Positions 30,140 to 36,845 of a DNA stretch of 56,623 nucleotides are shown here, piece after piece. The notes under the pieces are model-generated. The model was not told the DNA's origin, ran no database searches, and was given only the letters and a program-made list of their open reading frames with translations. The position numbers and the translations under genes were made by a program. This stretch comes from a virus. Position 1 is the first letter of the stretch, and each line of letters begins with the position of its first letter. Location: the IMG/VR virus record IMGVR_UViG_3300035156_000125, positions 1 to 56,623 of that record; one strand, given 5' to 3'.

Positions 30140-31588
30140 TTAGAAGGGCGCTGCTTCGTCCATGCCGTCGTCGAAGTTTGTTGAGTTTTTTATTGCTTGG
30201 CTCATTGGTATTAGCCGTTGTGTGGTTAGTAGCGCGGCCTTTGCAGGGAATTGTGATGAAACCAATTCCATTTCATCAAGTTCATAGAATTTCATCTTTG
30301 GTCCGTCAAATCCTATTTTAATTTCTGCCAATTCCCCGTTTCTCCATTTAGAAACTAGAATATCTGCTTCGTTTTCGGTACTGCCTCCATCCTCGTTTGT
30401 TTTCTTGCCGCTCATAAAATCACGGTGGATAAAAAGCACCCCGTCTGCATCCTGTTCCAGAGATCCGCTTTCTCGCAGGTTGTGTAGTTTCGGCTTTTCA
30501 CCTTTTTGCTCGCTTAACCGGTTGAGTTGGCATAGCAGAACAATAGGGATGTTGTATTGCTTTGCCATTAGCTTTATCCCACGGCTGATTTTGCTTACTT
30601 CCTGCTCCCTGACTGAATTTTTATTTAGCCCGTCAGTATCAATTAATCCTAAGTAATCGATAAACAGAACATCAATTTCGTTACGCTGCTTTAGCCTGGC
30701 CACCTTGCTTTTTATGTCACCTATGTTTACGCTCGCATTGTCCGAAATTTTAATTGGCAGGTTGCTACTTCTATTCATTATTTGATAGAATTTATCCGCT
30801 TGCTCCTGGTCGTACATTCTATTTCTCCAAATTCGCCAATACTCAACTTCTGTTATTAGTGATGCCATACGACCCATAATTTGCTTATCATCCATTTCAA
30901 GGGTAATCAGTCCTACTTTGTGCCCCTTCTTTGCCGCCTCGACAATCATTCGTCCCATAAAAGCAGTCTTACCCACACTTGGCCGGGCGGCTACTATATA
31001 CATTCCTGTCGGCTCTAGTCCCCCGGTTATCTTATCTAAATGTCGAAAGCCTGTAGTTATGCCTGATAATTCCCGGTCCTTAACCTCAATCATTTTCATG
31101 TATAGATCACTAAGAACCTCATCGAAGTTTTTAAAGTCATCGGTTATCTTTATTTGCCGAAGTTTTACGAGTTTGTCTTGCAGTTCATCAATATACATTA
31201 GCCCGTCTTTGCCGTTTGTACCAGACAAGGTTAACTTTAGCATCTCCCTTTCGATATACATTTGCCTAAGAAACAGGGAATGCTTTTCCAGGTTGGCCGT
31301 TGAGCAAACTCCTTTAGTTATTTCTGCCACATACCAGGCTGCATTGTGTCCATCGACTATCTGAAAACCTTTTTTGTAAATACAGTATGTGGCCGTGCAA
31401 ATGTCAATCGGTTCACTCGCTTCCCACATTTCAGACAGCACGTTAAATATGTTTTTATGGTGCTCATAGTAAAAAACATCAGGGTTGATAATACCGTACA
31501 TTCTTCCAAAGGCGGTGGGCTCAAGTAAAACTGAACCAAGTATCACTTTTTCTAATTGTCTGCTGTAGTGCAATTCTTCTATAAACAT
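30140..31588 (-). CDS. dnaB: Replicative DNA helicase, DnaB family
   Basis: A 482-residue protein of normal DnaB length. The N-terminal domain begins RQLEKVILGSVLLEP, and the RecA-like core carries Walker A ARPSVGKT (201-208), a following TLEM, and Walker B VLFIDYLGLI (Asp311). The late motifs LLCQLNRLSE and LRESGSLEQDADGVLF are diagnostic. It unwinds DNA at the phage fork. Its start shares one base with the end of the replication protein gene, so helicase and loader/initiator are co-expressed. Confidence 0.95.
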   Translation of the reverse strand: MFIEELHYSRQLEKVILGSVLLEPTAFGRMYGIINPDVFYYEHHKNIFNVLSEMWEASEPIDICTATYCIYKKGFQIVDGHNAAWYVAEITKGVCSTANLEKHSLFLRQMYIEREMLKLTLSGTNGKDGLMYIDELQDKLVKLRQIKITDDFKNFDEVLSDLYMKMIEVKDRELSGITTGFRHLDKITGGLEPTGMYIVAARPSVGKTAFMGRMIVEAAKKGHKVGLITLEMDDKQIMGRMASLITEVEYWRIWRNRMYDQEQADKFYQIMNRSSNLPIKISDNASVNIGDIKSKVARLKQRNEIDVLFIDYLGLIDTDGLNKNSVREQEVSKISRGIKLMAKQYNIPIVLLCQLNRLSEQKGEKPKLHNLRESGSLEQDADGVLFIHRDFMSGKKTNEDGGSTENEADILVSKWRNGELAEIKIGFDGPKMKFYELDEMELVSSQFPAKAALLTTQRLIPMSQAIKNSTNFDDGMDEAAPF

Positions 31589-32358
31589 TAGTCGTAAGTT
31601 GAAAGTTGTTTTTTTAGTTTTTCCTTTTTCTCTCTGTCGGATATTTCTTCAGGTGCAGAATATGAATTGAATGTTTTTAAGGTTGTAGGCGTCTGCCTGT
31701 TCATCCAGTTTATGAAGTGGGTGTAAGTATCTGAAACATCTTCGTAGAATTTCTTTCCGTTGAAATTTTGAACCTTAAACACTTTCCAATACCTCAAAAC
31801 CTTTTCATCATCAACGGTAATCTGTTTGCCTATTTTCAAAAGCTCCTTAACCGCACCTATTTTAATTTCTGGTATTTCAAGCTGTAAATTTTCTTCGTTA
31901 GGAAATTTTGGAAAATCCGTATTAATAATACCATTTACATTACCAGTACCATTTACAGTAACAGTAACAGTATCAGTATCATTTACATTACCAGTTGAAT
32001 TTGTTGAGGTTTGTTGACCGTTGTTATCGTTTGTTGAGCTTTGTTGAATTTTGTTGACGTTTGTTGAATTTTGTTGATTTTCTTCAAACTCCTTCAATAT
32101 CCTTTTTGTCTCTGCGCTAACCTTTCCGGCCTCACTTCTTGCCTTTTTCTTTTCCTCGTACTTTTTTAGATCCCGCTTCATTTGCCTTTTTATTGGCTCA
32201 AAAACAAGATCGACTACCATATCTTCAACTGTTGGGTTTCTATCGTTTACATAGGAAAGAATTATTTTTAACAATACCCCAGCCTTATCGTCCGGCATCT
32301 TTTCTACTGTATGGATTAAATCAGCATACAGTACAAAAGACTTTTTATCTTCTGCCAT
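31588..32358 (-). CDS. DUF6291-type replication protein (putative initiator/helicase loader)
   Basis: A 256-residue protein. The N-terminal 80 residues (SFVLYADLIHTVEKMPDDKA, LLKIILSYVNDRNP) match the DUF6291 opening from memory; the C-terminal 90 residues (VLRYWKVFKVQNFNGKKFYE, HFINWMNRQ) resemble replisome organiser proteins. Between them, residues about 90-150 are Asn/Thr/Gln-rich low complexity, encoded by DNA that contains an eight-unit 10-bp repeat. A replication protein upstream of dnaB with repeats inside its own gene recalls lambda O and its internal origin. Function is inferred from this arrangement. Confidence 0.7.
   Translation of the reverse strand: MAEDKKSFVLYADLIHTVEKMPDDKAGVLLKIILSYVNDRNPTVEDMVVDLVFEPIKRQMKRDLKKYEEKKKARSEAGKVSAETKRILKEFEENQQNSTNVNKIQQSSTNDNNGQQTSTNSTGNVNDTDTVTVTVNGTGNVNGIINTDFPKFPNEENLQLEIPEIKIGAVKELLKIGKQITVDDEKVLRYWKVFKVQNFNGKKFYEDVSDTYTHFINWMNRQTPTTLKTFNSYSAPEEISDREKKEKLKKQLSTYD
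32001..32080. repeat. Eight tandem 10-bp repeats inside the replication gene (candidate origin iterons)
   Basis: On the plus strand eight consecutive 10-base units each begin TTGTT; seven read TTGTTGA plus three variable bases and one reads TTGTTATCGT. The period is exactly one helical turn and is not a multiple of three, so the encoded residues differ between units: the DNA pattern, not the protein, is kept. Next to it (31931-31995) is an AT-rich stretch of short CAGTAA/CATTTACA repeats that could melt. This fits an iteron-type origin bound by the protein encoded around it. Confidence 0.7.
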
Positions 32359-32675: not shown

Positions 32676-32861
32676 ATGGCGAAAGGAGCAAAGAAAGGAC
32701 CGGCAAAAATTGATGCTAATGGCCTGGTGGCAATGTCATTCAAGTTCACGCCGGAAGTAAAAGATTTACTCGAAAAGGTTTCAGCCGCTAACAGGCGATC
32801 TTATACTGGTACTATCGAAGTGCTTATTCGTGAAGCAGCCAAACAACAAAACATCACCTAA
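32676..32861 (+). CDS. Small ribbon-helix-helix-like protein
   Basis: A 61-residue basic protein: MAKGAKKGPAKIDANGLVAM, then a strand (MSFKFTPEVK) and two helices (VKDLLEKVSAANRRSYTGTI, EVLIREAAKQ). This fits the MetJ/Arc/CopG fold of small DNA-binding regulators. It is one of few plus-strand genes and diverges from the replication operon; the minus-strand promoter at 32639-32669 is just upstream of its start, so it may control that promoter. Confidence 0.65.
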   Translation: MAKGAKKGPAKIDANGLVAMSFKFTPEVKDLLEKVSAANRRSYTGTIEVLIREAAKQQNIT

Positions 32862-36401: not shown

Positions 36402-36845
36402 CTAAAATGGCAAATCGTCGATCGGCTCAACATAGCTACTGCTCTGTGCCGTCTGGTAAGTCTCTGCAGGCGTGTAGGTTTGCGATTGTTGTGGCTGCTG
36501 TGACTGCTGTGACTGCTGTGACTGCTGCTGACCGCTGCTAAGTAGTTGAACAGATAACACGCGAAGCGATAAAGACGCACCATGTTGCCCTGTGTTCGAG
36601 GTATAGGTTCGAATATCCGGGCTGCCTTCCACATACACTTGAACACCCTTTTTTAGATACGGAGCAATACCAGTTTTATCAGTCCAATATGCGCAATCCA
36701 CCCATATACTTTTGTCCTTCTGATTACCTTGCGCGTCCTTAAACTTTTCAGTATGGCATACGCTAAAATTCATTACTTGCTTGCCGCCTACGTTGTTAAT
36801 AAGGCAATCTTTCCCGAGGTGGCCGATGGCCTGTAGTTTAATCAT
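36402..36845 (-). CDS. ssb: Single-stranded DNA-binding protein
   Basis: A 147-residue protein: OB-fold over residues 1-105 (MIKLQAIGHLGKDCLIN, FSVCHTEKFKD, SIWVDCAYW, KGVQVYVEGSPDIRTY), a Gln/Ser linker at about 112-130, and the acidic tip DDLPF that recruits partner proteins. The linker DNA has a 9-bp unit (TGTGACTGC) repeated three times at 36499-36525, prone to slippage but in frame. Confidence 0.95.
   Translation of the reverse strand: MIKLQAIGHLGKDCLINNVGGKQVMNFSVCHTEKFKDAQGNQKDKSIWVDCAYWTDKTGIAPYLKKGVQVYVEGSPDIRTYTSNTGQHGASLSLRVLSVQLLSSGQQQSQQSQQSQQPQQSQTYTPAETYQTAQSSSYVEPIDDLPF

Follow-up and report, generated by a model that had tools for sequence, protein, structure and literature searches.

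The stretch of DNA analysed here, which we call the window, is the whole 56,623-nucleotide viral record IMGVR_UViG_3300035156_000125 of IMG/VR. On its minus strand it carries a gene of the DUF6291 family with dnaB as the next gene directly downstream, the gene order that had been read from the sequence in the original prediction, and the part of the DUF6291 gene that codes for a linker holds two adjoining tandem arrays, one of 10-bp and one of 6-bp units (Table 1). The protein matches DUF6291 (PF19808) over residues 7-84 with 79.1 bits against a cut-off of 27.2, as do 70 of 70 aligned relatives, and its PHROG matches include primosomal proteins. AlphaFold2 predicts a small helical domain, a long helix that runs to about residue 99-106 (pLDDT ~78-93 across residues 61-90), a disordered linker (pLDDT <50) and a helical C-terminus. 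Searches of the PDB by profile and by predicted fold, with the whole protein and with the N-domain, returned nothing significant and revealed no sequence or fold kinship to lambda O or to DnaD-type initiators; the one weak predicted-fold match is a phage DnaD-domain protein (prob 0.72, E 0.26). The N-domain is thus without a solved structural relative, and DNA binding by it draws no support from its fold.

Table 1. Features of the DUF6291 locus in the window.
Feature	Position	Strand	Description and evidence
Putative replication initiator gene, DUF6291 family, 256 aa	31588..32358	(-)	PF19808 E 2.8e-22; PHROG; adjoining dnaB; candidate origin in linker
DUF6291 domain, residues 1-80, small all-helical	32119..32358	(-)	Pfam; AlphaFold2 helices 14-20, 23-37, 47-60, 64-99
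Putative specificity segment, ~residues 71-89, KKARSEAGKVSAETKRILK, on long basic helix	32092..32148	(-)	Covariation with iterons; class-core table; AlphaFold2
Iteron array, eight 10-bp units	32000..32079	(-)	Coding-strand consensus NNTCAACAAA; third unit degenerate; repeat searches and period tests
Ninth half-unit	31993..31999	(-)	AGTTGAA, coding strand TTCAACT; 9 bp from neighbour; bridges iterons and 6-bp array
6-bp tandem array, ten units, candidate DNA unwinding element	31933..31992	(-)	Coding strand G[T/A/G][T/A]A N [T/A]; TRF, repeat search, relatives, stability
Replicative helicase DnaB, presumed partner at origin	30140..31588	(-)	PF03796 E 1.9e-73, PF00772 E 2.9e-16

The C-terminal module of the family is variable, with Phg_2220_C found in 4/70 and DUF7833 in 6/70 relatives. 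The downstream neighbour in annotated phages is a DnaC-like protein (COG1484), DnaB or a primase-helicase; when ten downstream ORFs were sampled, five encoded a DnaB_C domain, four had no Pfam match and one matched DUF6633 only. Upstream of the gene in the window, on the opposite strand, a 61-aa ORF (32676-32861, +) weakly matches repressors of the CopG/Arc-like kind (phrog_7325, E 0.025) and is, from these matches, a possible regulator. The coding part for the DUF6291 domain also contains an inverted repeat of 16 nt (94% identity, 11-nt loop) at 32298-32340.

The iteron array consists of eight copies of TTTGTTGANN at an exact spacing of 10 bp; their first base is 32000, one before the 32001 given when the eight repeats were first noticed. 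The units are, in order, TTTGTTGAGG, TTTGTTGACC, the degenerate GTTGTTATCG, TTTGTTGAGC, TTTGTTGAAT, TTTGTTGACG, TTTGTTGAAT and TTTGTTGATT. TRF reports a period of 10 with 7.8 copies at 32000-32077, and a repeat search returned six overlapping 38-nt copies spaced by 10, 10, 10, 10 and 10. The lag-10 score of the array, 52/70, was never reached in 2000 synonymous-codon resamplings (maximum 50), nor when the gene's synonymous codons were permuted 2000 times among themselves (maximum 49) or in plain shuffles (maximum 42), and a second protein-preserving test gave z values of 4.3 at lag 10 and 4.2 at lag 20. The two-unit iteron motif occurs nowhere else in the 56.6-kb record. Ahead of the array, at 32080-32104, are two degenerate TTGAA half-sites (coding strand), 10 bp apart and inverted; they are perhaps a relic of the inverted core copy seen in 56/130 relatives, of which the window has none.

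Relatives drawn from annotated phages, IMG/VR and bacterial genomes argue that this period is selected in the DNA, as had been proposed because 10 is not divisible by 3. About 145 dereplicated relatives have a common layout of half-sites at 10 or 20 bp, 6-bp repeats and usually a helicase, loader or primase gene, and this two-part module, with differing iteron sequences, occurs in phages from seawater, gut and other sources and in Bacteroidota prophages. Cellulophaga phage phi19:3, Olleya phage Harreka_1 and Flavobacterium phage 11b are among the phages with this layout. Across the 136 dereplicated loci with enough sequence, which are still related to one another, the protein-preserving excess lies at lags 10 (z 2.18), 20 (1.47) and weakly 30 (0.69), with none at lags 9, 11 or 12. 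The commonest core 5-mer occupies two or three reading frames in 125/130 loci, and the commonest core spacings are 10, 20 and 9 bp. Between classes of iterons the linker residues are wholly different and the 10-bp phasing is kept, the reverse of the outcome (protein kept, period lost) that had been named as speaking against an origin. What the relatives do not keep is the number of units: the window is more regular than all of them, with eight consecutive exact 10-bp units against at most four in every other dereplicated relative. As a wider control, Lin1244_N (PF14297) genes gave only two matches in 99 genomes and no clear 10-bp units by eye. In gene L290 of a Flavonifractor phage, which is not a DUF6291 gene, TTTACA repeats lie by eye about 12 bp apart; since 12 bp is a codon multiple, this gene was left out of the count.

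The AT-rich micro-repeats noted at about 31931-31995 are real; they make up a 6-bp array whose units stay in step with the codons. The ninth half-unit that joins them to the iterons had been overlooked. Such an array is present in 143/146 dereplicated loci versus 21/396 other ORFs, with the consensus G[TA][TA]A N [TA], and the junction from the last core to the array reads C (91%), T (78%) and then G. When arrays were defined from the protein pattern alone, so that codons were not preselected, serine was encoded by AGT in 190/190 cases versus 20% elsewhere in the same genes, and asparagine by AAT in 360/360 versus 61%. Because these codons are fixed and because the lag excess survives the protein-preserving control, both repeats appear to be selected as DNA. 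In duplex stability the array of the window falls within the lowest ~2% of the record, and in relatives it is less stable than most of its own gene, which supports the array as an unwinding element at which the strands would melt. Four other phage or prophage genes that resemble initiators (L286, L287, L288 and L290), which are Lin1244_N genes or share the C-terminal module, also have short arrays; AAAGAT and AAGACT, for example, encode KDKD and KTKT, and the 6-bp element may thus reach beyond DUF6291.

The half-site sequence differs between phages and follows a segment of about 20 residues directly after the DUF6291 domain. Iteron k-mers correlated with segment distance given N-domain distance (partial Mantel r 0.50; largest of 199 permutations, which do not model the tree, 0.059), versus 0.066 with the N-domain given the segment and 0.016 for control upstream DNA; this test uses no class definition. 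When loci with at least three core copies were sorted into classes, the table of class against core was nearly diagonal, its off-diagonal cells totalling five loci (Table 2).

Table 2. Segment classes and their half-sites, in loci with at least three core copies.
Segment class	Half-site	Loci
GNLK[KR][WY]	ATCGC	24/27
G[ML]xxRW	ATAAC	5/5
GAxxRW	ATAGC	5/8
SGE[AS]R	GAAGC	13/14
GGRP (class defined after the fact)	AACCC	16/20
RS-AGxxSAExR	TCAACA	15/20
QR-AGxxSAExR (class defined after the fact)	ACGAAA	10/23

A rule relating segment to half-site was fixed before a second fetch of loci, and these held-out loci were fetched by residues 1-70 only. The rule called 44 members correctly and one wrongly, with two ties and 18 members without a call; GAxxRW and GMxxRW had zero held-out members. 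Seventeen of those without a call were SAExR members, most of them of an AACGAAA subtype recognised after the fact, and the wrong call (L262) appears, again after the fact, to be a protein of the RKRW type that a loose pattern let in. An additional class, [NS]A[RK][KL]RW, seems to be paired with GCATNCGA/GATGCC sites in a few loci (L138, L154, L175 and L262, the last at L262:3001-3500). Two relatives, L087 and L060, are 97% identical in their first 64 residues and 90% identical after the array, whereas identity drops to ~50% between about nucleotides 190 and 350, where one has SAEVR with AACG-type sites and the other GMAKRW with ATAAC sites. From this comparison the pair is a natural swap, in which segment and iterons have changed hands as one.

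We propose that the DUF6291 gene is very probably a phage replication initiator gene with its own origin inside it, the half-sites being read by the segment and the 6-bp array serving as unwinding element. What we computed is the two arrays, the DNA-level selection on them, the conserved layout, the covariation of segment and iterons and the helicase neighbour, and it is from these that we infer binding, melting, helicase loading and origin activity. The locus combines the marks of a gene-internal iteron origin, namely DNA-selected direct repeats in coding sequence, an adjacent AT-rich candidate unwinding element and a neighbouring helicase gene. The relatives lend support to both suggestions made from the window, a candidate origin and an AT-rich flank that may unwind. 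In this view the origin of replication lies in the coding part for the disordered linker. Neighbouring 10-bp half-sites, all facing the same side of the double helix, would be occupied by the DUF6291 domain together with the long, basic helix that follows it, and the half-site (here TCAACAAA) would be read by the residues that come after RSEAGK. The resulting nucleoprotein complex could then open the adjoining AT-rich 6-bp array; recruitment of the phage DnaB helicase or its loader, the product of the next gene, may fall to the C-terminal module, which is variable. GC skew shows no switch at the gene and is uniformly negative from ~12 kb on; it is uninformative here, because the genes all point one way and would mask a switch.

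Phased sites selected as DNA, together with a covarying protein segment, would fit any DNA-binding protein, and the repeats could in principle be operators for autorepression of the operon by this protein, with replication starting elsewhere. We regard this as unlikely: the sites lie ~280-365 nt into the coding region, away from the promoter, a search for further iteron clusters across the window found none, including upstream of the gene, and the fixed geometry to the AT-rich 6-bp array and the helicase neighbours match what is seen at proven in-gene origins (PMC7466680, PMC6316719, PMC8965321). Slightly less likely again is binding of the iterons by another protein, of host or phage, with the segment covarying only through joint inheritance of neighbouring DNA. 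Segment and iterons are indeed adjacent and could move as one cassette, and the covariation may partly reflect such co-inheritance, although the N-domain, which is equally close, is almost unassociated once the segment is accounted for. The code also seems to be graded: ATCGC is paired with G[N]xxRW, ATAGC with G[A]xxRW and ATAAC with G[M]xxRW, and a host protein would not require as many types of site as there are initiator classes. Least likely of all, and already largely refuted, is protein-level selection on a flexible linker rich in Q, N, S and T with tandem duplication by slippage, for although the linker is disordered and 6 bp is two codons, 10 bp is no codon multiple, the units stand in several frames, the signal survives protein-preserving controls, the phasing persists between classes whose residues differ completely, and slippage leaves unexplained both the single Ser and Asn codons across divergent loci and the covariation with the segment.

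Within the proposal of an initiator with a built-in origin, we favour, with rather less assurance than for the origin itself, a recognition code in which the segment on the basic helix, and not the conserved domain, sets the half-site, the N, A or M of GxxxRW corresponding to the three graded sites. Since the protein segment and its site share one short stretch, specificity can change by cassette exchange; segment and in-gene iterons would swap together, and origin specificity would switch in one recombination event that leaves the rest of the initiator unchanged.

Initiator genes with an internal origin are already known, namely lambda O (PMC7466680), SPP1 gene 38 (PMC6316719) and the genes of lactococcal TP901-1 and Tuc2009 (PMC8965321), and the DUF6291 arrangement would add a variant to them. 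Lambda O had been put forward as the nearest parallel, a place that it does not keep. The replisome organizers of the lactococcal P335 phages (Rep2009 and TP901-1 ORF13) bind direct repeats in their own gene that act as origin (PMC8965321), and Rep2009 of Tuc2009 is closest in layout, with helically phased CAACCA half-sites followed by a short tandem array. In the Tuc2009 rep gene (L291:5430-5545) CAACCA units at 11 bp precede AT-rich 5-bp repeats (AGGAT/AGGTT); its phase is thus 11 bp against 10 bp in the window, and its array ~5 bp against 6 bp. The Tuc2009 and TP901-1 genes are annotated as DnaD-like, not DUF6291, and for P335 phages the literature searched gave no specificity code like the one proposed for DUF6291. 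Our protein-preserving test recovers Tuc2009 (11 and 22 bp) and lambda O (23 bp), and found in TP901-1 rep DNA a weak lag-15 signal only, so that it misses some known in-gene origins. In lambda O and the lambdoid oriL, iterons and an AT-rich tract lie in the middle of the initiator gene, and a helicase-loader gene adjoins it (PMC7466680). A-tracts in the iterons are a further likeness, whereas lambda O has four separated iterons of ~18 bp, ~20-24 bp apart, in place of 10-bp half-sites, its AT-rich tract lacks a 6-bp array, and its protein is unrelated to the DUF6291 protein. SPP1 gp38 binds direct repeats in gene 38 beside an AT-rich unwinding element, and the genes of the loader gp39 and the DnaB-type gp40 follow (PMC6316719); SPP1, compared here from the paper, differs in having a second origin, oriR, elsewhere.

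We found no mention of DUF6291 in the open-licence literature. DUF6291, a domain of unknown function that occurs in hundreds of viral contigs, would gain a function on our proposal, that of a replication initiator with a built-in origin; the arrangement is common to more than 100 related phages, and for these sequence alone would narrow the origin down to ~150 bp. The linker would be coding sequence whose amino acids are dictated by DNA function, its protein changing whenever the iteron changes. The many natural pairs of segment and DNA site make the recognition code and its evolution directly testable, and a shared iteron class might be why some co-infecting phages are incompatible or exclude one another.

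In bacterial oriC, DnaA boxes stand at a fixed spacing to the DnaA-trio, a 3-bp repeat (3'-GAT-5') where melting starts (PMC6669920). In the 6-bp array WAN recurs at every other triplet, a resemblance only; we rejected a reading of the array as DnaA-trios, as its period is 6 bp and not 3 bp, and an AAA+ domain was not found in the DUF6291 protein. In the SSB gene of the window (36402-36845, -), a 9-bp tandem array at 36490-36537 codes QQSQQSQQ in the C-terminal linker, and because 9 bp is a multiple of 3 this repeat is probably maintained at the protein level.
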